Shown: in pieces, positions 1,391 to 28,885 of the stretch | How positions within the stretch are numbered: position 1 is the stretch's first letter | Layout: each line of letters opens with the position of its first letter | Source of the DNA: a virus | IMG/VR virus record: IMGVR_UViG_3300030107_006146 | Location: 8,718 to 37,665 of that record | DNA length: 28,948 bases | Strand: one strand, 5' to 3' | Translations under genes and position numbers: made by a program | Notes under the pieces: model-generated | Seen by the model: only the letters and a program-made list of their open reading frames with translations | Told to the model about the DNA's origin: nothing | Database searches by the model: none

Positions 1391-1422
1391 AAGGGAGGGG
1401 GAAACCCCTCCCTTTCTTTTTT
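1391..1422 (+). terminator. Strong intrinsic terminator after gp32
   Basis: A perfect 10-base-pair stem, AAGGGAGGGG (1391-1400) with CCCCTCCCTT (1405-1414), closes a GAAA tetraloop and is followed by C and a run of T to 1422. It begins a few bases after the gp32 stop. The T run overlaps the stop codon of the convergent tape-measure gene. Read leftward, the hairpin is the same but lacks a good U tract, so its main direction is rightward. Confidence 0.92.
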
Positions 1423-3838
1423 AGAACATTTCTGATCTTGTCTGATCTCTTCCGCTTCTTCTGAATGATGGGTGATTTGAATTTCCTGATGAAGAAACTG
1501 TAGAACTGATATTTGTAGATGTTACGTTCGTAGGAGCGTTTGTTGTGTTTGCAACAACAACGGTCGGACTTGATGTTCCATTTAATTTTGAATTTGTTGA
1601 TAAATCTTGTGCTAGTTGGGCCTTTCCTAATGTATTTGAATGGACAGCAGTAGATGAATCCATAGCTTTAGCTAACATTCCTCCAACAATTTCAACAGAT
1701 CTATCAAGAGGCATTACTATTTCTGGTCCAGCTTCTCCCATTAATGCTACCATTGCTTTACGGACAAGGCCTCCCTCTGCTAATGCTCCTGTTGGTTCCG
1801 GGAATACTTGTGTAAGATCGGCTGGAGCAGGTTTATCCGCCCCGACCCAGGCCAGTGTCGATGAAAGACTGCCGGTATGCTCACCTTTGATAGTTTTTCC
1901 TTGATAGGTAAGTTTTCCTCCCTCTAAATAAGCTCCATTTGGAAAATAGAATTCCCCAAACTGGTCTCCAACCCACCACTTTGAGTGTTCGAAGTTTCCT
2001 CCGTCAGCAACACCTTGGTAAATAGGATCCTGAGCAAATATTCCTACCGCTTGCTCAGGGGTGATTATGCCTTGCATTACGTTATCTCGTACTCTATCTA
2101 CTAAACTTTGTAAGAAGCCTGCTTGAGTCGAACTCCAAGCATTCCAAGCCCTTCCCAGTTTAATTCCGTTTGCGTCAGTATGCCAATCATTTACATAACC
2201 ATCTCTAAATTCATCAGCTAAATTTTTTGCTTCAACTCTAAGCTGATCATAGATTAGACCTTTGCCTCCAGTACCTTCCTCCTGCATAATCTGTTGGAAT
2301 TCCTCTGCACTTTCAAATCCCGCTGCGATTCGGGCTCGTCCCTCGTCAGACATTCCCAATATCTCTCCCGTTTTAAAATCTTTTCTCATTTTAAATTCAC
2401 TAAGATTTTCATTGCCTTCTTTTTCGGCGGTCTCAGCTTCCTCGGCCGTCATTGCGTGGAATTCCCCTGTCTCATGATCCTTATAAATGCTTTTTCCGCT
2501 TTTTGTTTTAAATCCAGTTTCGGTTTCTCTAGTTGAAGCCGACGCCCCCTCTGTTGCTTCTTTTCTTACTCTCTCTTCTTCTTTATTTAAACCGAAAATC
2601 TCGCCTAAAAAGTCTAAGACTGTATCCCAATTTAATGCTAACAATACTGCACCTACGACTGCTGCGATTAATGTTACAATCAATGCCCCTTTAAGCAACA
2701 ATGGTAATGCCATTGCCAACATAGGTAAAAATCTGGTTATCATTGAGAAAAGGCCACGGAATAGTCCTCCTTTTCCTTTACTAACACTCTTCACCGCATC
2801 TCCCAGAATGCTTGCCTTCTTTTCTGACTGCTCTTCTCTTCGTGAGAGTCTGCCCTTCAATCTGCTTCTTCTAGATTCAGAATCTCTTTTTCTCTCACGA
2901 TCATGCATCTGTTTGTTCGCCCTTGCGAAAGCACTCCTGTAGCCTTCGAACTGTTCGAACTGATCACCTAAGAGATCGTGTGTTAAATTATCTCCGTTAA
3001 AAGTAGCCAATATTAGTTTATCTAATCTATCTGCTATTCCATTTGCCATCTCAACAAGAATAGATGAAATATTTTCTAATAGTTTAGGAACTTCGCCTGA
3101 CTCGTCTTTGCCTTCTTTATCTTTATCTTCACCTTTACCTTTTTCCTCTTCGCCTTTCTTCTTTTTACCTTTAAATCCAAAAAGTGAACCTATGGAGCCG
3201 GCTGCTCCTTTCCCAAGATCTTTTGCTAAGCCAAATCCAACATTTTTTACTGTTCTGATAAAAGGCAGTTCCAGAACTGCACTAACGGGACCTAAGATTT
3301 CAGCGAAATCTTGTTTAAGTCCGGATCCTAGGCCTGTCATGACATTTTTACCTGCCTCGGTCATAGACTCCCCTATAGTTCCAAGGGAAGACTTCATGTT
3401 TTCAAAAATTTTATCTCTATGACGTTCTCTTCTATCGTTATCTCTATCCTTTTTATCTTGTTGTCTTTTTTCAAATCTCGCTTTCGGGGTTCTCAATCCC
3501 TTAATCGTAGTTTGATTTTCTTTCATTTCATTTAGAAGTTCACCTACGTTCTGTTTTTTATTCCTTTTAGCATCGCCAGGAGTGAGTGCGTTTTTAGCTG
3601 CTGATAAAACTCCACCAGAAGTTTGAGAAGTTTGTCCTTTGAATGCTTTAAATTGTTGACCTCCAGCACCAGCACCACGCATCGCTGCTGTGGCCTGTTC
3701 TTTAATTTCAACGGGGAATACTCCTCTAGCCTGAAGTGCCTCCATGACATCTTCCGCAGAGGCGGCATTTAATGATCCCGTTACTTCTCCTCCACCTTGG
3801 CTTTCAGGTTTAACCGCTTTGTAATTAAATTTTGGCAC
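1421..3838 (-). CDS. Probable tape-measure / tail-length protein (gp29 position)
   Basis: This 805-residue protein would span the tail tube and set its length. The evidence is partly position, directly downstream of a chaperone pair with a probable -1 frameshift, and partly sequence. It has long Lys/Glu/Arg-rich helical regions (about 95-150 and 300-345), a charged low-complexity stretch near 220-252, and a hydrophobic segment near 362-405 that could cross a membrane. Near 700-712 is GEAGPEIVMPL, a motif I know from the C-terminal parts of many tape-measure and tail proteins. T4 gp29 is shorter (590). The start is a GTG at 3838-3836; AGGA 7 bases upstream overlaps the end of the chaperone extension, so translation may be coupled. 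The first 47 residues resemble the N-terminus of GspF/PilC secretion proteins. The C-terminus is Ser/Thr/Asn-rich. Another large virion protein is the main alternative. Confidence 0.6.
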   Translation of the reverse strand: MPKFNYKAVKPESQGGGEVTGSLNAASAEDVMEALQARGVFPVEIKEQATAAMRGAGAGGQQFKAFKGQTSQTSGGVLSAAKNALTPGDAKRNKKQNVGELLNEMKENQTTIKGLRTPKARFEKRQQDKKDRDNDRRERHRDKIFENMKSSLGTIGESMTEAGKNVMTGLGSGLKQDFAEILGPVSAVLELPFIRTVKNVGFGLAKDLGKGAAGSIGSLFGFKGKKKKGEEEKGKGEDKDKEGKDESGEVPKLLENISSILVEMANGIADRLDKLILATFNGDNLTHDLLGDQFEQFEGYRSAFARANKQMHDRERKRDSESRRSRLKGRLSRREEQSEKKASILGDAVKSVSKGKGGLFRGLFSMITRFLPMLAMALPLLLKGALIVTLIAAVVGAVLLALNWDTVLDFLGEIFGLNKEEERVRKEATEGASASTRETETGFKTKSGKSIYKDHETGEFHAMTAEEAETAEKEGNENLSEFKMRKDFKTGEILGMSDEGRARIAAGFESAEEFQQIMQEEGTGGKGLIYDQLRVEAKNLADEFRDGYVNDWHTDANGIKLGRAWNAWSSTQAGFLQSLVDRVRDNVMQGIITPEQAVGIFAQDPIYQGVADGGNFEHSKWWVGDQFGEFYFPNGAYLEGGKLTYQGKTIKGEHTGSLSSTLAWVGADKPAPADLTQVFPEPTGALAEGGLVRKAMVALMGEAGPEIVMPLDRSVEIVGGMLAKAMDSSTAVHSNTLGKAQLAQDLSTNSKLNGTSSPTVVVANTTNAPTNVTSTNISSTVSSSGNSNHPSFRRSGRDQTRSEMF

Positions 3839-3847
3839 TTATTTTTC

Positions 3848-4036
3848 CTATCTTCTTTGTTGCTGTTCTATTCTCTTGTTTTCATCCTGAATATATTTTT
3901 GTACCTGTGACATGTAAATTTCCCTTTCCCAAGGTAACATTTCTTCTAATTCTGTTATGCTCCAGCCGTGATGTTGTGCTAATTGAAATACTATGACATA
4001 ATGAGCATACAGATTCATATGGGAAAGGCCTAGACG
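3848..4036 (-). CDS. gp51-like tail chaperone extension, read by -1 frameshift
   Basis: This reading frame is -1 to the gp26-like gene and continues from the TTTTTTC site. It adds 62 residues, giving a predicted fusion of about 311 residues. It includes FQLAQHHGWSITELEEMLPW, followed by EREIYMSQVQKYIQDENKRI, and ends in a Gln/Arg tail. The pattern 'W-S-I-x-E-[LI]-E-x-M-x-P-W-E-R-x-x-Y' is what I would expect of the downstream half of phage tail-assembly chaperones (lambda GT type) and of gp51-like proteins. An internal ATG lies at 4018-4016 (56 residues), but no good Shine-Dalgarno site precedes it, which favours frameshifting over a separate start. The TAG stop (3850-3848) overlaps the ribosome binding site of the tape-measure gene. 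Confidence 0.7.
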   Translation of the reverse strand, partial: RLGLSHMNLYAHYVIVFQLAQHHGWSITELEEMLPWEREIYMSQVQKYIQDENKRIEQQQRR

Positions 4037-4782
4037 AAAAAATCATTTAATCCTTCCAATACTATTTCATTGTGTTCCGGTAAAGGTTCATCGTTTTCAT
4101 TTCTTTCTGGATCAACTGGAACTTTATATTTTATCTTCTTTGTTAATTTTGGACATTTATCGAAGAAACCAACTACCTTCTCAAATTGTGGAACAGTCAT
4201 AGATTCAACAAATTCTTCAACCTCTTTTAATGGTATTTCTGATGTTAAAAATGATTCATCCTTTGTCCATACTTCTTCAACGCATGTGCAAATTATTTTG
4301 AATAGATTTTTAACATCTCCCAATTTAGAATAATCTTTTACTTTTGCTTTTTCTAAAGAGTTCAATGAAGGATATTTAAGAGTTACTCCTACTTCATCTG
4401 AAAGTTTTATCTTGTTATTAGGAGCCTTTTTATTCATTTTAATTGTAGTTAGATCTAAATCTATGCTTATTTGTTTGCCCGTCAGGGGACAAATTATATT
4501 TGGTTTAACCTTTTCTCCTACGGATTTAGAACGAAGATGTAAAAAGATATATTCTAAATCTCCTATCGCAAGATCTCCTGCATCATCAATTTCATCAACA
4601 CAATTTGCAACTAAATTTTTAATTGCATTTAGAATTGATTTTTCGGAATTTTGCTCTAATGCAAGTAATAAAACTTTTTCTTCCTTTACCTTATAAGGTC
4701 TAAAAGACACTTCTTTTCCAGACAAAGGCAACTTTAGTTGATATTGGGGTATTTCTGATTTTAATATTGATGCAATTGACAT
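4030..4782 (-). CDS. gp26: gp26-like baseplate hub / tail assembly chaperone
   Basis: This 250-residue protein resembles the T4 base plate protein family that includes gp26 (Pfam T4_baseplate). Family features seen: an N-terminus of the type IPQYQLKLPLSGKEVSFRPY, then VKEEKVLLLALEQ, a central CPLTGKQISIDLDL segment, and a C-terminal region with EVEEFVESMTVPQFEKV. In T4, gp26 is listed as a hub component needed for hub assembly. In this phage the gene sits where tail assembly chaperones sit, directly upstream of the tape measure, and its last codons carry a slippery sequence. AGGAG 8 bases before the ATG sets the start. The upstream gap carries a 24-base element also found before gp53. The unshifted form ends DFFV at the TAG at 4032-4030. 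Confidence 0.75.
   Translation of the reverse strand: MSIASILKSEIPQYQLKLPLSGKEVSFRPYKVKEEKVLLLALEQNSEKSILNAIKNLVANCVDEIDDAGDLAIGDLEYIFLHLRSKSVGEKVKPNIICPLTGKQISIDLDLTTIKMNKKAPNNKIKLSDEVGVTLKYPSLNSLEKAKVKDYSKLGDVKNLFKIICTCVEEVWTKDESFLTSEIPLKEVEEFVESMTVPQFEKVVGFFDKCPKLTKKIKYKVPVDPERNENDEPLPEHNEIVLEGLNDFFV
4036..4042 (-). promoter_or_regulatory. -1 ribosomal frameshift site (T TTT TTC)
   Basis: On the leftward strand the last codons read GAT TTT TTC GTC TAG. The heptamer T-TTT-TTC fits X-XXY-YYZ exactly, so both tRNAs can re-pair after slipping back one base. The stop follows after one further codon. The -1 frame then stays open for 61 more codons with a chaperone-like sequence. I did not identify a clear downstream stem-loop or an upstream Shine-Dalgarno stimulator. 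Confidence 0.7.
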
Positions 4783-4791
4783 AATATATTC

Positions 4792-4815
4792 TCCTATATT
4801 TTATAAAATAAAGTT
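4792..4815 (-). promoter_or_regulatory. 24-base promoter-like element before the gp26-like gene
   Basis: Read leftward, this block holds TTTTATAAAATATAGGA and ends in the Shine-Dalgarno site of the gp26-like gene. It matches 6946-6969 on the other strand at 23 of 24 bases. TATAAAAT is related to, but not the same as, the T4 late octamer TATAAATA. A variant late promoter with a built-in ribosome site is the simplest reading. Confidence 0.4.
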
Positions 4816-5476
4816 AATCAATAGTAGTAGTATCCGGGCCCGGCGGCGGCGGTGGCGGCGGAATTTCCGCTTCTTTCCATTTCCTGAATGAGAAGGTAAC
4901 AGCTTGACGCACATAATCATCTATCGAATTGTAACTTAATGAAATTGGTTGAATAGATTTAGGGTAAACTTCCTCTAGTTCTACACCCATCACAGATTCC
5001 CCTTTATCATTTTCTAATGTAATTACCATTGTTCCTGTATATTGATCTCTGCCTGTAATCATTAATGCATTGTCGCTTATGATAATATCCATCCATTTAG
5101 AAAACGCTGTTCTGTGTTTTTCTATGGTATTTACAGACAATATGAATACTAATTCTAAATCTCCAGAATATAATCTCTCGTATGGAATATCATAAATCGG
5201 TCCCCATATTCTTCTTTGAATGGTTGCTAAAGATCTTCCTGGCAATGCTGTGCTTTCTGCTAATTCATATGTGACATCCTTGCCACCCATCAGATTAGGC
5301 ATAGTAAGTTTACAAGTATATTTGGTAGGTCTTAATAAACCACCTTGAATGCTCTCTACTATTTTGTCTATCTGGCCGGACCCCATGGAGGCCTGTATTG
5401 AAGCCGGGCCTTCCTCCTGCGGAGGAAACCCTTGGTCCTCAAGAAACCCGGGCGGAAATAATTGTGGTTCTGGCAT
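4814..5476 (-). CDS. Tail-tube-fold protein, probably gp54-like tube initiator
   Basis: This 220-residue protein carries the pattern of the gp19/gp54 tail-tube fold: LTMPNLMGGKDVTYELAE, then ALPGRSLATIQRRIWGP, IPYERLYSGDLELVFILS, FSKWMDIIIS, and a late AVTFSFRKWKE strand. In T4, gp54 sits on the baseplate with gp48 and starts tube polymerisation. The major tube protein gp19 is the other candidate, but that gene normally sits beside the sheath gene, which is not here. The neighbours (chaperone, tape measure, gp4 and a gp48-like gene) favour gp54. Both ends are Pro-rich: MPEPQLFPPGFLEDQGFPP at the start and seven consecutive prolines near the end, encoded by a GC-rich patch (about 4834-4862) that stands out from the AT-rich surroundings. 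AGGAG precedes the ATG. Confidence 0.55.
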   Translation of the reverse strand: MPEPQLFPPGFLEDQGFPPQEEGPASIQASMGSGQIDKIVESIQGGLLRPTKYTCKLTMPNLMGGKDVTYELAESTALPGRSLATIQRRIWGPIYDIPYERLYSGDLELVFILSVNTIEKHRTAFSKWMDIIISDNALMITGRDQYTGTMVITLENDKGESVMGVELEEVYPKSIQPISLSYNSIDDYVRQAVTFSFRKWKEAEIPPPPPPPGPDTTTID

Positions 5477-8056: not shown

Positions 8057-9736
8057 ATGACAAGTGGCGAAAGACAACTACAATCTCAAATCATATATGA
8101 TACTGTTTCTATAAGAAAAGGAACAGGTAATGCATCTTCTGATGATCCAGGCGATACTATTGATTTATTGACTTCAAATGCGATAGAGAAATTAATAATT
8201 TTTGAAGATATGTTTGCTCCTTGTTTATCGGGAAAGTTGCAAGTAAAAGACTTTTCTGATTTTGGTGCTATTTTGCCTCTTAAGGGAAATGAGGTTCTAG
8301 ATATTATCATAAGAGAACCCGACTCAGAAGAAGGACTAATATACTTACCTCCATTTCACATTTATTCTGTAGAACAAATAGATGGCGATATGAATTCAAT
8401 GCGGGCATATGAGATATATTTCACTGCGAGAGATCTCACAATGTCAACTTATGATGATGCTCATCTATATGAAGATATGAAAGAATCTAATCCAGAACTT
8501 TCTCAATATTATGGTTACATTCATGATTTTGTTAAAGATTTATTATCTAGAAATTATCAATTTGATATGCTGAACTATGAATTCCCCCTTTCCGAAAGGG
8601 TAGAAGAAACCACTAATAAGATTTGGTATAGACCGAAAGAAGAAGAATATTCTTCTCTAAGAAAAGATGGACCTCAAAGATTTTTAGATCTTATACATCA
8701 ACTAGCAGAAAATGCTTATCATGAAGATGAAGGTGAAGGCGGCGGCGTAAAAGCAAATTACATGTTCTACCAAGATTTAAAAAAATGGAATTTCAAATCT
8801 GTTCATTCTATGATTGAAGAGGGAGAAGAGGTTCCAGAGGAAAAAAGTTATTTCTTTAATATGGACATGAGTGGAGAAAGTGGGGTACTTGCTAGAAATA
8901 GAATATTAAATATATCAAGGGCAAAGAGAGCAGATCATATTGATCTTTTAGAGAGCGGAGCGTATAGAACAAATTTTGTTTACTATAGGCCTAAAATAGA
9001 CACAGAAAATTATCCTCTTTGGTTCACTAGCAATCTTAAGAAATTTTATTACAGAGTAAATTGTAGATACAGAGATCACTTTCCTGCTGCGATTGTTGGC
9101 TTCGAACAAATAGATGATTATGTTCCAAGATGGAGATATGCTTTTGCCGAAGTTTATCTTGTTTTTGATTATGAAAATAATAAACCATCATTTAAAATAA
9201 AACCGATTAATCATGGAGGAACTAGATCTTGGGTCACTTATGAGGAAAGTGGTCCACATTGGATAATTGGAGAAGAAGAGGGAGAAGATTACAAATACTT
9301 TGGTCGATCTGCCTTTAACACAATGGAAATGGGCAATGATGGATTCTATGATTATGAAGGGGAAGAGACAGGAAGATTAGGCTGGGAATCCCCCGGAGTA
9401 AGAATTGACTCTATGTTATGGGAAGACGGGTGTTTTAAAATTCAACCAATTAGAGGCTCTATGACCGAAGTTCAATCTGAGGAAGAAGATGGAGAAACTA
9501 TTCCGGGAGAACATCAATCCGGCCCGGATGGAGAAAAGAATAATGTTAAAAGGCTAATATCTCCTTTAATTGACGATGATCAAGACGTTACTGGAATATA
9601 TCCAGTTGTTGATATGAAGATATATTGGGATCAAGAAAATAATCCTCAATATTTCTTTACAGCATCAAACACAGTGGATGGTGAGTGTGATCAAGAGGAC
9701 GATGATTGTAAAGATCTTCCAACCGAAGAACAGTGA
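8057..9736 (+). CDS. Baseplate hub protein, gp27-like N-terminal part
   Basis: This 559-residue protein has a pattern I associate with hub proteins of T4-like marine phages: IEKLIIFEDMFAPCLSGKLQ, VKDFSDFGAILPLKGNEVLD, then PPFHIYSVEQ and MRAYEIYFTARDL (residues about 40-130). This fits an outer beta-barrel domain of the gp27/gp44 hub fold. Later parts hold long acidic stretches (EDEGEGGGVK, EEGEEVPEEK, EEEDGETIPGEHQ) and a Cys-containing acidic tail. The strand-rich closing domain I would expect of a hub ('leRvGDiI...SGkyLI...H...') is not seen here but appears in the protein starting at 12710, so hub functions may be split. The start has only a weak GGA site in TGGAATTAAATTATG. T4 gp27 is 391 residues. 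Assignment rests on pattern and position. Confidence 0.55.
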   Translation: MTSGERQLQSQIIYDTVSIRKGTGNASSDDPGDTIDLLTSNAIEKLIIFEDMFAPCLSGKLQVKDFSDFGAILPLKGNEVLDIIIREPDSEEGLIYLPPFHIYSVEQIDGDMNSMRAYEIYFTARDLTMSTYDDAHLYEDMKESNPELSQYYGYIHDFVKDLLSRNYQFDMLNYEFPLSERVEETTNKIWYRPKEEEYSSLRKDGPQRFLDLIHQLAENAYHEDEGEGGGVKANYMFYQDLKKWNFKSVHSMIEEGEEVPEEKSYFFNMDMSGESGVLARNRILNISRAKRADHIDLLESGAYRTNFVYYRPKIDTENYPLWFTSNLKKFYYRVNCRYRDHFPAAIVGFEQIDDYVPRWRYAFAEVYLVFDYENNKPSFKIKPINHGGTRSWVTYEESGPHWIIGEEEGEDYKYFGRSAFNTMEMGNDGFYDYEGEETGRLGWESPGVRIDSMLWEDGCFKIQPIRGSMTEVQSEEEDGETIPGEHQSGPDGEKNNVKRLISPLIDDDQDVTGIYPVVDMKIYWDQENNPQYFFTASNTVDGECDQEDDDCKDLPTEEQ

Positions 9737-9749
9737 TGGATATTAAATT

Positions 9750-12686
9750 ATGGCAATGCATCATAAATCCTGTTGTTGTAATGAATGCACGGATGTTCCG
9801 CCCGCTGCGTTCATATACATTGGCACCGATACTTCACAGACATGTGGAAGAATAGAACAAGAAGAATTAAATAATTACTTAACATATAATCCAGATTTAT
9901 TTTACTCTGGTGTATGTTATGAATGGTTTACAAATGAATGTACGCCTTTCTGTTTGCAAAATGAAGATGTAATACACCCCGTCGTAGAAGCAGATAAATT
10001 CGAAATCGATAATGATTATGTCTTCGAAGAGGAAATAGAAAATAGAGATGGGACTACCACCACGGTAAACAAAGTTAGAGTTGGTTTAGAGGTTAGAGTG
10101 AAACCAATCGGAACTTGGTGGCCTTTCGGTTCTGAGTTTGATTTAGCCGGAGGTTTTGATTGTAGTAAAACCGGAGAAGATTGCGTTCCAGCTTTACCAG
10201 ACGCCGATGCATTTCCGGATAGTTTACCAGAAGATGTATTTGATCCCGGGCCTCTTGATATTCCTCTTTGCGATTCTTGGTGTCAGGATCATCCTACTCC
10301 AGAATGTTATGATTTGCCAATAGAAAAAGTAGAATATGAAAGGTACAACAACCCCGAATCAGTTGAAAATGCAGCCGCTGCAATTAATGATATGATTCAA
10401 GAAAGATTTGGTCCTCAAATATTAAGCGACGAATCTATAAACCCATATCCCGGTCAAATATATTTCGGTGTCGATAACACAGGATCAATGACATGGTGTA
10501 CCGAGTCAGATCAAAGTGATGGGATTGATAATCCCGGTGCATGGCAAGTAGCAAAGGCAGTTTATGATAAATTTGTGGAAATATGGGGAGAAGAGGCTGC
10601 ATCATTTAAATTTAATCCATACCATTCTAAGTTTGATCCTGAAGTTGGAAAGTTCACCGATGAAAGAAACGTATATACACCAGAACAGCCTGGAAGAAAA
10701 CCTGTTGAATTTTGTGCCGGTCATTCGTGCGATAGAAGTTGTTTCTTGTGGGATTATCCTACAAATCCTAATTATTGGTGGTTTGCAGATTTAATTCCAC
10801 CTGCGGTGCAATTTAAAAATTATACCAAACAGGAAGAAGAGTGGTTAATTGAAGATGAAGACAAAATCTACTGCTCTGAGAAATCAGATAAAAGTTTATT
10901 TTATTGCAACTGTGAACAGGCCGGAGATCTTCCTACTTATGCTTTGCAGCAAATGGAAGAGACATTGGCGGTTTGGGAATTGCCTGTTTTTTATTATGAT
11001 AATCATCCATTCCCTAAGTATTCTGCTGATGGTTCTGGTGGAGATATCTACGAGGATACTTTTGTTATAACTGGAGAGGATTACTTGGGTGGAATCAACA
11101 ACATGATGGCTAAACACTTTAAATGTTGTAACTGTGATAAAGAAAAAATAGAGAGTTGTGGTTGGCCAGACAATAATCCTCTTCCGGGTTGGTGGGAGTG
11201 CCAAGACGATGAAAAAAATCCTGACGGTTTCTGTGGTTGGGGAGGACTAGGATGGCCTAGAGCTTTTGGGAACGCTTTTGATTCTCCAGTAAAACTTCGT
11301 GAAGATCTAAAAGGAAATGATCATTTTGAAAAATGCAATGATGGTGCTGCACCTTGTACCATTTCATATATGTTGCCTTATACCATAAGAAACCAATATA
11401 ATTTAGGAAGTTCTGAGGATTGTGAAGTCGCTTTGCAGAATGTTCAAGCAATGGGAGTACCTTGCAAGTGTCCATCTCAAGAGCCTCCAAGAATTGATAT
11501 ATCTCTGTGGGATAATGCTTGTGACACATCTATGGTATTTCCGTGTCCAGATGATCTGATTGAAGAAGAAGAATTTATTTGTGATCCTAACAATTACAAT
11601 ACAGGTGAACCACCTTCGACTGACACTCCAACAGAAGAAATTATTATATGTGTAAAAGAATGTGATGGTGAATCAGAACCAGTTTGTCAGGAAACCACTG
11701 CTGATGAATGTGAAGGATTTTGGCAAGGAGTTGTCGCTGAGCCAGGAGCCTGTTGTTATGGGGAATATTGTTATCAAACAGCCGAAGTTTGCTGTGTGTC
11801 TGCTGGTGGAGAGTTTATTGGAGGACCGTGTCAAGTTCCTGTGGAAAACTCACCATCCTCACCGGAGCCGCCCGAGGATGACTATGACGGCGACTTTCCA
11901 GTCGAGGAAGATATCCCTGTCGATACGCCTAATGTCATTATGAGGTCGGCATGTGATCCAAAAGAAGATGAATGTGATCCTGATAAAGTAACATATGTTT
12001 GCTGTGATAATGAAGGAAATTTAGTTGAAGTTCCGGATGATCCCTGTTTCGGTTTCAATATAAACCCAGAACTGCCTGAAACATGTTGTTGTAATCCTAG
12101 AGGCTTTTATGAATGTATAGATTGTTTAGATTGTGATGACGACAATAGTAGCGGCGGCGGTGGACCAGGAGAAGACACTGGTGCATGTTGTAATGGTAAT
12201 ACTTGCTCAAGAGTTCATCCATCAGAATGTTCAGGAATGTTTGTAGGAGGAAACTGCGGGCCACGGACATGTGGCGAGGACGATCCAGAACCAAAGCCCT
12301 GTTGTGTTGGGGAAGGGACTGGAAGTGCAGATTGTTATCCGAATCTGGAACCAGAAACATGTACAGCAATAGGTGGCAACCCAATTTCAAGTTGTAGCGA
12401 ATGTACCGATGGTGAGTATTGTAATCCTGATGAATGCAATGGATATCGAGGCGATGATGATGGTGGAGATAGTAATGAAAATGGAGGCCTTGGAACATAT
12501 TATTGTTGCAGAAGCATCAATGGACCATGTGAGAAATGTGCGTGCGGAAATGGGGATGGTGCATATGGATGTATAGAATCTACTTGTAGCGTTAATTGTG
12601 GCGCATTTATTTGTGAAGGTGAGGCATTTGCACATAACTTGTGTAGCACTTGTTCTGGCTTCGGTGCTTGCAGTCAGGGCGGATAG
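9750..12686 (+). CDS. Large Cys-rich virion protein with a VWA-like motif
   Basis: I do not recognise this 978-residue protein as a T4 homologue. It has about 80 cysteines by hand count, starting with CCCNEC near residue 8. At 238-247 it reads YFGVDNTGSM, which fits the metal-site motif D-x-T-x-S of von Willebrand factor A (VWA) domains (Asp242, Thr244, Ser246). The VWA-like region may extend to about 460, where FVITGEDYLGGINNMMAKHF lies. Residues about 620-978 are very Cys-rich, with 'GACC' repeats starting near 666 and 811 and a related PCC unit near 850, separated by acidic Pro-rich linkers. No signal peptide or membrane segment is evident, so I infer a virion component that oxidises outside the cell and may act in adsorption. 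It lies between two hub-like genes with short gaps, in the same operon. VWA folding is likely but not proven. Confidence 0.6.
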   Translation: MAMHHKSCCCNECTDVPPAAFIYIGTDTSQTCGRIEQEELNNYLTYNPDLFYSGVCYEWFTNECTPFCLQNEDVIHPVVEADKFEIDNDYVFEEEIENRDGTTTTVNKVRVGLEVRVKPIGTWWPFGSEFDLAGGFDCSKTGEDCVPALPDADAFPDSLPEDVFDPGPLDIPLCDSWCQDHPTPECYDLPIEKVEYERYNNPESVENAAAAINDMIQERFGPQILSDESINPYPGQIYFGVDNTGSMTWCTESDQSDGIDNPGAWQVAKAVYDKFVEIWGEEAASFKFNPYHSKFDPEVGKFTDERNVYTPEQPGRKPVEFCAGHSCDRSCFLWDYPTNPNYWWFADLIPPAVQFKNYTKQEEEWLIEDEDKIYCSEKSDKSLFYCNCEQAGDLPTYALQQMEETLAVWELPVFYYDNHPFPKYSADGSGGDIYEDTFVITGEDYLGGINNMMAKHFKCCNCDKEKIESCGWPDNNPLPGWWECQDDEKNPDGFCGWGGLGWPRAFGNAFDSPVKLREDLKGNDHFEKCNDGAAPCTISYMLPYTIRNQYNLGSSEDCEVALQNVQAMGVPCKCPSQEPPRIDISLWDNACDTSMVFPCPDDLIEEEEFICDPNNYNTGEPPSTDTPTEEIIICVKECDGESEPVCQETTADECEGFWQGVVAEPGACCYGEYCYQTAEVCCVSAGGEFIGGPCQVPVENSPSSPEPPEDDYDGDFPVEEDIPVDTPNVIMRSACDPKEDECDPDKVTYVCCDNEGNLVEVPDDPCFGFNINPELPETCCCNPRGFYECIDCLDCDDDNSSGGGGPGEDTGACCNGNTCSRVHPSECSGMFVGGNCGPRTCGEDDPEPKPCCVGEGTGSADCYPNLEPETCTAIGGNPISSCSECTDGEYCNPDECNGYRGDDDGGDSNENGGLGTYYCCRSINGPCEKCACGNGDGAYGCIESTCSVNCGAFICEGEAFAHNLCSTCSGFGACSQGG

Positions 12687-25024: not shown

Positions 25025-26197
25025 ATGAGTGACTATCCCTCTCTAGTAACTTCAGTTAGCGCCCATCCTTTCAATATAGGAAGGTTGGGCGATACTGGTC
25101 CAGAAGGAAGCAGCAGTGTTATTCAGGGACCTACCGGAGCAACAGGTGCCACCGGTCCCCTCGGAGCAAGCGGTCCAACAGGACATCCAGGCGCAACAAT
25201 CACTGGCGTAACTTATACAAGCACCGGTCCAAATGCACATCACCTGATTGTTCAGTACGCGGGAGGTTTAACTACCGATGGCGGTTTCTTTAGAGGTCCT
25301 ACTGGTCCTTCAATATATCATTTGTTTGGTGAGAATTTAGGTCAAGCAACTGGTGGATCAATATTTAAAGAAAGCATTAATGGCGTTCTTAAACTTAGAA
25401 GTTTAACTGGTGGCGGTGGTGTTACAGTAAGAGACTATAAAGAAGAAGGTAAAATTGCAATCGGTTTTACTTCATATGATTCAGTTCAAGCATATGGAGC
25501 TACTGGTGAGTTAGTATTCTTTAGCATGAATTCTTTAGGAAGCACTGGATTATCTGGTGCAACTTTAACAAGTTATTATCCTGGTCCTACCTTTGCTCTA
25601 AAAGCAACAACAATGAGATATGATGAAGTCTCTGGAAGAATATCTCCATATCAATATGAGTGCGAAACAAATACTATGTTGTATAAAATAAATCCAATGA
25701 AGTTATTATCGATTGATGCAGCAAGAGATAATTTATCTAAAGGAAATCATTGGATAATAAAACCAAACGAAGACTATGAAAAATTAATTGGTTATGAAAA
25801 TCCGGTTTTCCCAGAAAATGAAAGACCGTTTATTCGTATAATTGATTCATCTTCAACGGAAGAAGACTATGATGAATTTGAAGATACTTTTGGAAAATTC
25901 ACTGGTCTAGGATTCACTCTAATAGTTGAGGGAGGCGATAATTCTGGAGTCAGACCGGTTAGACTTGATTGTGATGAATTTGAACGAGGTGCAACGCCAG
26001 AAAGAATTACTGATTATCAATACACAGAAACATTCCCTAAAAATTGGAAATTCCCTTATAACGCCGAGCCTACTCTTACAAACGGAATAGATATTATACA
26101 GTTCATAAGTATAGGAACGGAAGATTTTGATACAGGCAGAAATGAGTGGTATGGTTTTTATGTCCGAAGCGAATCAGAGAATCCGTTTTATTATTAA
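25025..26197 (+). CDS. Collagen-like virion protein A
   Basis: This 390-residue protein begins with a short head (LVTSVSAHPFNIGRLGDTG) and a collagen-type Gly-x-Thr/Ala run, including GPTGATGATGPLGASGPTG (residues about 20-56) with a second short GPTGPS near 97. Such repeats form trimeric stalks in phage fibres. Two beta-rich modules follow: one with GATGELVFFSMNSLGS (about 159-174), and one with FTGLGFTLIVEGGDNSG and NGIDIIQFISIGTEDFD, ending NEWYGFYVRSE. The same two modules, in the same order, occur in the next gene. It contains only two cysteines. GGGGGAAG precedes the ATG. It is an adsorption or surface-decoration candidate; its position in the virion is not certain. Confidence 0.6.
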   Translation: MSDYPSLVTSVSAHPFNIGRLGDTGPEGSSSVIQGPTGATGATGPLGASGPTGHPGATITGVTYTSTGPNAHHLIVQYAGGLTTDGGFFRGPTGPSIYHLFGENLGQATGGSIFKESINGVLKLRSLTGGGGVTVRDYKEEGKIAIGFTSYDSVQAYGATGELVFFSMNSLGSTGLSGATLTSYYPGPTFALKATTMRYDEVSGRISPYQYECETNTMLYKINPMKLLSIDAARDNLSKGNHWIIKPNEDYEKLIGYENPVFPENERPFIRIIDSSSTEEDYDEFEDTFGKFTGLGFTLIVEGGDNSGVRPVRLDCDEFERGATPERITDYQYTETFPKNWKFPYNAEPTLTNGIDIIQFISIGTEDFDTGRNEWYGFYVRSESENPFYY

Positions 26198-26206
26198 GGA
26201 TTATTT

Positions 26207-28885
26207 ATGAGTAGTAGTGCCCATATTATGATTTTAGGTCCAACAGGAGGCACCGGCGCTGCTGGTGGTGACTGTCCGGCTGAGTTTATAAATTCTGGTT
26301 GTTTGGATGGAATATGCGGTGCAACATTTGGCGCAACTGGTGCAACTGGTGCTACTGGACATACTGGTGCTACTGGTCCTAGAGGTAGGGCGGGAGTTGG
26401 TTTTGGTTACTGCGGACCAACAGGACCACAAATAACTATTATAAATGATGATGGAACAGAAACCATAACAACAGCAACTTATGATGCTCGTTATTATCGA
26501 TATGCTGGCTTATGCGGAGATTCTCTTGTTTTATTCTTGGCTACTGGTTCGACCGGAGGAGGATATACATTAGAGGTTCCCGGAAAAATAGGTGTAGGAC
26601 ATCCTCGCATACAGAATGGTGTAATTGCTGATATTCGTGGAGCAACAGGAACAACGGGTCCAACAGGTCCTGTTAAAATTGAAACTGTTGGAAGTGGTGT
26701 ATCAATTCTATTCTCGAATATATTTGAAGATGGTAGCAATTTAGGTCCCACCGTGGAATTTAAAACTCTCTTCTCGAATGGTGATGCAGAAATACAAGTT
26801 TTTGACAATACCATTTATATTTCCGGTTTAGCAGCAGATGCTCCTGATGGCATTGACATGGGAATCACTGGTGAAATAATTTACATGAGAGGCGAAACTT
26901 ATGCTGATGGGGCAGCAGATACTTTCTGGAATGCAAGCACAGGAACGGGTTGGCCGATCCCAACATCTTACGAAGATGATCCTGCTGCCGGTGCATCTGC
27001 TTATCACGAAGCACTTACAGCTAGATTAATAGATCATAGAGAAATAATTAAAAGACATGGAAACCAGCGTGGATTTACTGCATATCCTGTGGGCTATGCA
27101 GAGGCCACACAAACAGATGTTAATCTGAAATTAGAACATGGAAACATACAAAAAGTATATTGCGGTCTTACCACTGGACATATTTACTTACCCACGGATG
27201 GAGCAACTCCTACAGGAAGAACTCATGATGTGGTTCAAAACTTTACTTTAATTCTTCATAACGCAGGAAATCATGGTCTTCTCACAGGAGAAAATCCAGA
27301 ACACGATGTACATCGTCATATACTTGGACCAGATGGGGGAGATAAAACTCCAATCTTCCCAGAATACCATCAAAATGGCAATTGGAATGATACAAAGTTT
27401 TCTTCGGCGGAAACTGGATCAATCGATATTTTACACTTTATTCGTAAACCAATTTCAAGCACGGAAGCTAAATGGTATGCAATAAATCCAAGTCTAGGAT
27501 TTAAAGAATCATCAGAATTTTCTTATAATGCTGATGAGGTTGGAGCTTGCTGTGATGAAAGTTTCTTCTTGAACGGAGGAAATGGTTGTGTAGATTACAC
27601 GTTAGCAAAAGATTGTCTTGAATTAGAGAACTCAACATTCCACCCAGAGACTTTGTGTAGAGATACTTCATGTGTTGGTAATGACGGTGCTTGTTGTACA
27701 ATGGGAACTTGTATTCAAGCAACCCATTATGATTGTGAAGAAGTTGGTGGATATTTTGTAAATGATGCTTCTTGTGATGATCCTAGCTGGTCATGCAATG
27801 ATTATCCATGCAATTGTGCAACTCCTCCAACTGGAGCATGTTGTTATGAAAATTCAGAAAATGATTGTATTGATTGCATACAAATGACTGAAAATCAATG
27901 CACTAACTTAGGAAATTTGAGTGACGATTTTAACGCTACGTTTAGAGGAATTTATACTGAATGTGGAGTGAATACTTGTGGGAATAGCACTTGCGCCGAA
28001 TGGGGTGCGTGTTGCTATATGGATTCCGAATGTAAGTCAGAAACACTTTGTAATTATACCACACCGGAAACATGTTCCGTTCTTGGAGGAATTTATCATG
28101 GAAATGAGAGCGAGTGTTGTTCTCTTGTTCCAATACCACAGAAGAAAGAAAAATGGTTAGGTTGTTATTGTAAAAATGGCGGGGTAAATTGTATCTGGGG
28201 AGATACCTATAATGATGTTAGAAATAACATAGCCGCGTTTAATATAAGTGAAGAATGTTGGAATATTTTACTATGGAATCCGAGTGATGGAGACTTTACA
28301 TATCCTGATGATGGTTGGGTTCCTTGTTTTGCATCACAGCTAGATGAAAATGGAAATCTAATTCCAAATCCTGCTTGCACTCAAGGAATATGTGCAAATT
28401 GTGATGATTGTAATTGTGCTTCTATAATCGATAGTAAACCTCTTGGAAGATGCTGCTTCCCGTTTGCGATACCAGTTGTAAACTTAAATGGACAGAGTAT
28501 AACTGTAAACTGCTTACCAGACTACGATGAAGATTCATGTTATGCATCTGGTGGTGTTGATTGGGAACAAGGTGCAGCTTGCCCAGAGGGTGGTTGTGAT
28601 ACTCCAGAAGTGCCAGAATGTATTGATTGTGATGAAAGCAGAGTTTGTTGTGTGGGCGGAAAATGTGTAAAGGCAACAAGCGAAGAAGAATGTGATGTAA
28701 TTGGCGGAGAGTTTCATCCTGATGTGTCCAGTTGTGAGAACATCGACTGTTGCATTGATCAATCTGGAGCATGTTGTTTGTCAACTGGTTGCGTACAAGA
28801 ACATCCATATAAATGTGCCGTTCTGGGAGGTATATTCCAAGGTATAGGAACTGATTGTAATAATTTAGAAATTGATTGTTGCTGA
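26207..28885 (+). CDS. Collagen-like protein B with Cys-rich GACC repeats
   Basis: This 892-residue protein has three parts. Residues about 8-65 are Gly-rich and include the collagen-type run GATGATGATGHTGATGPRG. Residues about 145-440 hold modules paralogous to those of the preceding gene (ITGEIIYMRGETY; FTLILHNAGNHG; TGSIDILHFIRKPIS; AKWYAINPS). From about 446 to the end come seven 'GACC'-type units beginning near residues 446, 494, 543, 600, 747, 813 and 854, each with about six cysteines and mostly a conserved GG-x-[FY]. A longer spacer near 645-730 is less repetitive but still Cys-bearing. The final unit ends in DCC just before the stop, so the protein looks complete. The repeats match those at the C-terminus of the gene at 9750. 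I infer an extracellular, disulfide-stabilised adhesin or decoration; no enzyme motif was seen. Confidence 0.62.
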   Translation: MSSSAHIMILGPTGGTGAAGGDCPAEFINSGCLDGICGATFGATGATGATGHTGATGPRGRAGVGFGYCGPTGPQITIINDDGTETITTATYDARYYRYAGLCGDSLVLFLATGSTGGGYTLEVPGKIGVGHPRIQNGVIADIRGATGTTGPTGPVKIETVGSGVSILFSNIFEDGSNLGPTVEFKTLFSNGDAEIQVFDNTIYISGLAADAPDGIDMGITGEIIYMRGETYADGAADTFWNASTGTGWPIPTSYEDDPAAGASAYHEALTARLIDHREIIKRHGNQRGFTAYPVGYAEATQTDVNLKLEHGNIQKVYCGLTTGHIYLPTDGATPTGRTHDVVQNFTLILHNAGNHGLLTGENPEHDVHRHILGPDGGDKTPIFPEYHQNGNWNDTKFSSAETGSIDILHFIRKPISSTEAKWYAINPSLGFKESSEFSYNADEVGACCDESFFLNGGNGCVDYTLAKDCLELENSTFHPETLCRDTSCVGNDGACCTMGTCIQATHYDCEEVGGYFVNDASCDDPSWSCNDYPCNCATPPTGACCYENSENDCIDCIQMTENQCTNLGNLSDDFNATFRGIYTECGVNTCGNSTCAEWGACCYMDSECKSETLCNYTTPETCSVLGGIYHGNESECCSLVPIPQKKEKWLGCYCKNGGVNCIWGDTYNDVRNNIAAFNISEECWNILLWNPSDGDFTYPDDGWVPCFASQLDENGNLIPNPACTQGICANCDDCNCASIIDSKPLGRCCFPFAIPVVNLNGQSITVNCLPDYDEDSCYASGGVDWEQGAACPEGGCDTPEVPECIDCDESRVCCVGGKCVKATSEEECDVIGGEFHPDVSSCENIDCCIDQSGACCLSTGCVQEHPYKCAVLGGIFQGIGTDCNNLEIDCC
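26323..26400 (+). repeat. Collagen-like coding repeat
   Basis: Tandem nine-base units of the form GGTGCAACT / GGTGCTACT encode Gly-Ala-Thr triplets here. A shorter, less regular run of the same type lies at about 25081-25194 in the preceding gene. These tracts can recombine or slip, which would change stalk length. Confidence 0.7.
27542..28882 (+). repeat. Cys-rich GACC protein repeats (seven units)
   Basis: Units start near 27542, 27689, 27836, 28007, 28448, 28646 and 28769. Typical spacing inside a unit is CC-x(3-5)-C-x(6-9)-C-x(2-3)-GG-x-[FY]-x(4-8)-C-x(3-6)-C. The first two intervals are about 147 bases each; others differ. The repeats are similar in protein but diverged in DNA, so they are not a recent tandem duplication. 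Confidence 0.65.

Follow-up and report, generated by a model that had tools for sequence, protein, structure and literature searches.

The window, that is, the whole stretch of viral DNA analysed (28,948 nt; positions 8,718 to 37,665 of the IMG/VR record IMGVR_UViG_3300030107_006146), carries a gp26-like gene whose 3′ end overlaps a second open frame shifted by -1, followed by a long gene for a probable tape measure protein. The features of this locus are as follows:

4030..4782, minus strand: TAC-N, gp26-like, the putative short form of a tail assembly chaperone, 250 aa
4051..4057, minus strand: SD-like GGAAGGA, a candidate 5′ frameshift stimulator, with 8 nt separating it from the heptamer
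4043..4045, minus strand: TGA of the -1 frame, which abuts the heptamer on its 5′ side and closes the frame
4036..4042, minus strand: slippery heptamer T_TTT_TTC, in the X_XXY_YYZ phase of the 0-frame
4030..4032, minus strand: TAG stop of the 0-frame, one sense codon past the heptamer
3848..4036, minus strand: TAC-C, the gp51-like extension of the C-terminus, read in the -1 frame and made up of 62 codons and a stop
4016..4018, minus strand: ATG inside the -1 frame, unlikely to be used as a start
1421..3838, minus strand: probable tape measure protein, 805 aa, with a GTG start and its own AGGA at 3849-3846

On the minus strand the TAC-N gene ends with GGA TTA AAT GAT TTT TTC GTC TAG, in which GAT corresponds to positions 4044-4042. 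After the heptamer the -1 frame reads RLGLSHMNLYAHYVIVFQLAQHHGWSITELEEMLPWEREIY... and stays open down to a TAG stop at 3850-3848. Upstream of the heptamer it has no open codon in the window and, because the TGA at 4045-4043 closes it, no start codon before the ATG at 4018-4016. The predicted TAC-NC fusion has 311 aa, composed of 249 residues through the second Phe and 62 new ones. These readings agree with the original prediction, which had placed T-TTT-TTC at 4042-4036, one sense codon before the stop, had given the junction peptide, and had the -1 frame continue to 3848 with a chaperone-like sequence. The -1 peptide matches phrog_634 ('baseplate hub assembly catalyst', E 5.4e-23). TTTTTTC occurs 21 times in the 37.7-kb contig, and in phase at 2 of the 9302 codon positions scanned, so that the heptamer alone is not rare. 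Its rarity was dropped as evidence for frameshifting, and the proof was therefore taken from a comparison of relatives.

Both parts of the locus fall into the T4 gp26/gp51 family, the short form through matches to PF12322 (T4_baseplate, E 2.6e-51) and phrog_150 ('baseplate hub', E 8e-53), and the extension through phrog_634. An HMM built from the -1 domains matches the C-terminus of T4 gp51 (E 3e-8 in a 3-sequence search). T4 gp26 (208 aa) is covered by PF12322 end to end and corresponds to the N part only, while T4 gp51 (249 aa) shows PF12322 over residues 1-201 and a gp51-type domain at its C-terminus; in the alignment of T4 gp51 with an HMM of the conceptual fusion products there is no break at the junction. 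With gp26 as the counterpart of TAC-N and gp51 as that of TAC-NC, it follows that T4 replaces the frameshift by one gene for the short form and a second, fused gene for the long form. Unlike the locus described here, T4 has two separate, divergently oriented full genes and no frameshift. The description of gp26 and gp51 as two hub genes, which the prediction had cited as the usual one, does not fit this locus, where they form a single chaperone, gp26 its N part and gp51 its C extension, and T4 gp51 itself is N plus C. The TAC-N of the window is 31-40% identical to those of its relatives; judged by sequence, the window is a new, divergent member of the T4-like TAC genes.

For the comparison we assembled 94 homologous loci, comprising the window, 6 contigs, 7 isolate phages and 80 IMG/VR contigs. 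To find the contigs we used similarity to the 0-frame protein and not the heptamer, and three of the isolates (L009-L011) were chosen from matches to the -1 peptide. Alignment of the junction across relatives, which the original prediction had proposed as a check, revealed a T-run heptamer in phase, close to where gp26 stops, at all 94 loci (TTTTTTC at 81, TTTTTTT at 12 and TTTTTTA at 1). The domain encoded in the -1 frame is the same throughout the distinct loci listed, one contig ending inside it. Among the 89 distinct loci the P-site codon is always TTT, and the codon before it varies in its amino acid (S, D, A, N, H, G) while its third base is always T. Under synonymous usage this constancy of NNT and TTT has a log10 probability of -30.7, a value that overstates the case because relatedness among the loci is ignored. 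Taken across the aligned sequences, a chance origin of the heptamer and the -1 ORF is excluded.

The heptamer is also kept in 7 of 8 further isolates picked for diversity. In Pseudomonas phage Cygsa01, a distant relative (L104, ~3050-3270), it is lost, and a TAATG stop-start overlap is present instead. Loss of the heptamer together with separately started genes had been named in advance as the observation that would speak against frameshifting, and the arrangement in this phage counts against it. In Cygsa01 the ATG of the C part overlaps the stop of the N part, possibly a third arrangement of the two parts.

The -1 frame is constrained as protein. Over codons 2-15 its pN/pS is 0.23, and over codons 2-6, the five codons ending at the position of the window's ATG, it is 0.32, against 1.55 and 1.21 for the other two frames used as controls. 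Purifying selection thus acts on the -1 frame even upstream of the internal ATG. At the same time, the frame shows little sign of a start of its own. No SD motif of at least 4 nt precedes the ATG at 4018-4016 in the window, in line with the earlier remark that this ATG has no convincing ribosome site, and SD motifs are absent before the first ATG of the -1 frame in 87 of 89 loci. The position of the start varies among these loci, 22 of which have no ATG before codon 16, and at 88 of 89 the open stretch of the -1 frame that precedes the heptamer contains no start codon. A -1 ORF that is under protein-level selection and has no start of its own is what characterises a frameshifted chaperone of the G/GT type. 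The -1 peptide is matched by 535 phage records and, among the matches listed, most begin at its residue 1 or 2.

These results bear on the simplest alternative, in which two separate genes are present and the second starts at ATG 4018 by translational coupling or reinitiation, with no frameshift. In its favour, the ATG lies 11 nt past the gp26 TAG, gp51 appears in public records as a separate gene that starts internally, and Cygsa01 has the TAATG overlap and no heptamer. Against this stand the missing SD at ATG 4018, the start position that is not conserved among relatives, the purifying selection on the -1 frame before the ATG and the synonymous conservation of the heptamer; moreover, the SD-like element is more than 30 nt from the ATG in the window, too far to serve it. 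We therefore consider two separately started genes improbable. As to the public records themselves, that of Synechococcus phage ACG-2014b (L010, 2508-2687) leaves the chaperone C part unannotated, with the -1 ORF intact, and it is in records other than this one that the separate gp51 genes are found.

Candidate stimulators of frameshifting were seen on both sides of the heptamer in relatives. Aligned at the heptamer, the relatives show GGAGGG-like purines that end 9 nt upstream, the version in the window being GGAAGGA. This element pairs with the anti-SD sequence more strongly than synonymous resamplings do (z -9.3), and in a scan of the last 70 codons of 76 representatives the effect was confined to the two intervals that cover the site (z -7.4 and -8.8), values elsewhere ranging from -1.9 to +4.6, with controls that leave part of the shared-ancestry effect in place. 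The 9-nt distance in the relatives falls within the 9-14 nt given for -1 stimulators in a 2016 review (PMC5009743). Just 3′ of the heptamer, the relatives fold better than synonymous controls (aggregate z -21, with z below -2 in 49% of loci, and -4.2 to +0.2 in the other stretches tested), again with part of the shared ancestry left in the controls. One stem register shows compensatory changes, with 19 cells in which both sides are changed and none of 500 shuffles as high, in an alignment whose rows were chosen partly for having the hairpin. In the window no downstream stem-loop was detected (z 0.24; z +0.77 against synonymous controls), though many relatives have one. We regard it as rather likely that the chaperone frameshift sites of T4-like phages are three-part cassettes, made of an SD-like element 9 nt 5′, a T-run heptamer and a stem-loop about 5-7 nt 3′, of which the 3′ part turns over between lineages, the lineage of the window relying on the 5′ element. 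The -1 cassette of E. coli dnaX likewise has an upstream SD-like element, a homopolymer heptamer and a downstream stem-loop, as in many of the relatives; it differs in gene and purpose, and the window itself is without the stem-loop.

A fusion could also arise if RNA polymerase slipped on the T run and altered the number of U in the mRNA. The run is homopolymeric, with 6 T here and 7 in some relatives, but six Ts are short for transcriptional slippage, most relatives end the run with C, all keep the X_XXY_YYZ phase, and the SD-like and stem-loop elements point to ribosomes, so that slippage of the polymerase is very unlikely. Homopolymer runs are common sites of sequencing error, yet an assembly or sequencing indel that splits one in-frame gene can be set aside as having a negligible probability and is already contradicted, the same junction being present in 94 loci that include finished isolate genomes such as those of P-SSM2 and KVP40.

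The AlphaFold model of TAC-N, computed from input rows of the window and IMG/VR only, is of high confidence, with a mean pLDDT of 91. In a fold search against the PDB the two matches of highest probability were 3fgx (0.69, E 1.0), which we take to be an XkdN-type phage chaperone, and 2ob9, the HK97 tail assembly chaperone (0.63, E 0.38; ~86 columns, TM 0.19/0.40). Because of these E-values, 1.0 and 0.38, neither of which is significant, the matches are suggestive only, and the predicted fold of TAC-N weakly resembles that of the HK97 chaperone. A fold search against a viral library returned gp26-family proteins, as expected, and a PDB sequence search with the TAC-N profile gave a single chance-level match.

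The 805-aa product of the downstream gene is hydrophobic over a long segment around residues 363-400, carries a GEAGPEIVMPL motif and matches the RcGTA tape measure family weakly (E 4e-4, below the cut-off). The Caulobacter phage Cr30 gene at almost this location carries a tape measure annotation. Relatives of the 805-aa protein were not found in viral contigs, and T4 gp29, included with the downstream ORFs of relatives in one phmmer target set, was not among the 24 matches listed. The gene is a probable tape measure gene, weak as its sequence similarities are. Its first ~56 residues weakly resemble the N-terminus of GspF/XpsF type II secretion proteins (E 0.002-0.006, far below the cut-offs). 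Directly upstream of the chaperone gene, 4814-5476 on the minus strand encodes a tail-tube-like protein (phrog_45, phrog_3629) with a proline run near its end; the protein appears to be a second tube or initiator paralog. Farther away, the large proteins encoded at 9750-12686 and 26207-28885, which may be fibre or adhesion proteins of the virion, contain cysteine-rich motifs of the GACC type in repeated copies, and 25025-28885 also has collagen-like Gly-rich repeats.

Conservation of the heptamer, selection on the -1 frame, collinearity with T4 gp51 and the weak likeness to the HK97 fold lead us to conclude that the locus is, with high probability, a frameshifted tail assembly chaperone of the G/GT type in a T4-like phage, placed before a probable tape measure gene. 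Most ribosomes would stop at the TAG at 4032-4030 and yield the 250-aa TAC-N ('gp26'), and a minority would slip back one base on T_TTT_TTC and yield the 311-aa TAC-NC with its 62-aa 'gp51' extension; the upstream SD-like sequence probably helps the slippage. That this happens in the cell, and at what efficiency, we infer from the comparative data. If lambda gpG/gpGT is a guide, TAC-N would be present in many copies and coat the product of the adjacent probable tape measure gene, and the few copies of TAC-NC would recruit tail-tube subunits through their extension. The likeness to lambda lies in the layout, a short chaperone and a -1 frameshifted long form beside a probable tape measure gene; here the 250-aa TAC-N carries a PF12322 domain, and T_TTT_TTC serves as the slippery site. 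The original prediction, a -1 frameshift joining gp26-like and gp51-like parts, is thus supported by the comparative evidence. Of the G/GT layout that it proposed, the chaperone role is well supported by the same comparisons, and the tape measure is likely, with weak sequence evidence.

That gp26 and gp51 of T4-like phages act as tail assembly chaperones, as had been predicted, and that frameshifting takes place in T4-like groups, has been proposed before. Vladimirov, Gautam and Davidson 2022 (Virology 566:9-15) reportedly described frameshifting as conserved in several T4-like groups, with T4 using genes 26 and 51. Of two papers citing Vladimirov et al. 2022, one cites it for poly-T slippery signals in the TAC-N genes of T4-like phages (PMC12846349) and the other relays from it that, in some T4-like phages, a short gene together with a fused long gene takes the place of frameshifting (PMC10885494). 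Going by these accounts, the 26/51 pair, the frameshift idea and the chaperone conclusion are shared with that work; the finding is real and correctly read, and an arrangement of this kind had been published for T4-like phages in 2022. The contig of the window differs as a divergent member of the group. A literature text search for the pair of SD-like element and stem-loop, or for its lineage-specific loss, returned only general papers and no such description, Vladimirov et al. 2022 being reached through citing papers only.

In the 2016 review, G-T frameshifting counts as a conserved trait of long-tailed phages 'except T4' (PMC5009743). The locus of this uncultured, divergent marine phage indicates, contrary to that review, that the T4 superfamily, taken as a whole, is no exception to the rule of tail-chaperone frameshifting. 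Several public records give the gp51 of cyanophage-like genomes an internal start or omit it; the appropriate annotation for gp51 in such genomes is the C portion of a protein made by frameshifting. To measure what sets the ratio of short to long form, the elements conserved on either side of the heptamer offer concrete targets. If the reading of the sites as three-part cassettes is true, then, with the lineage of the window lacking the 3′ part and relying on the 5′ element, this ratio would be retuned lineage by lineage.
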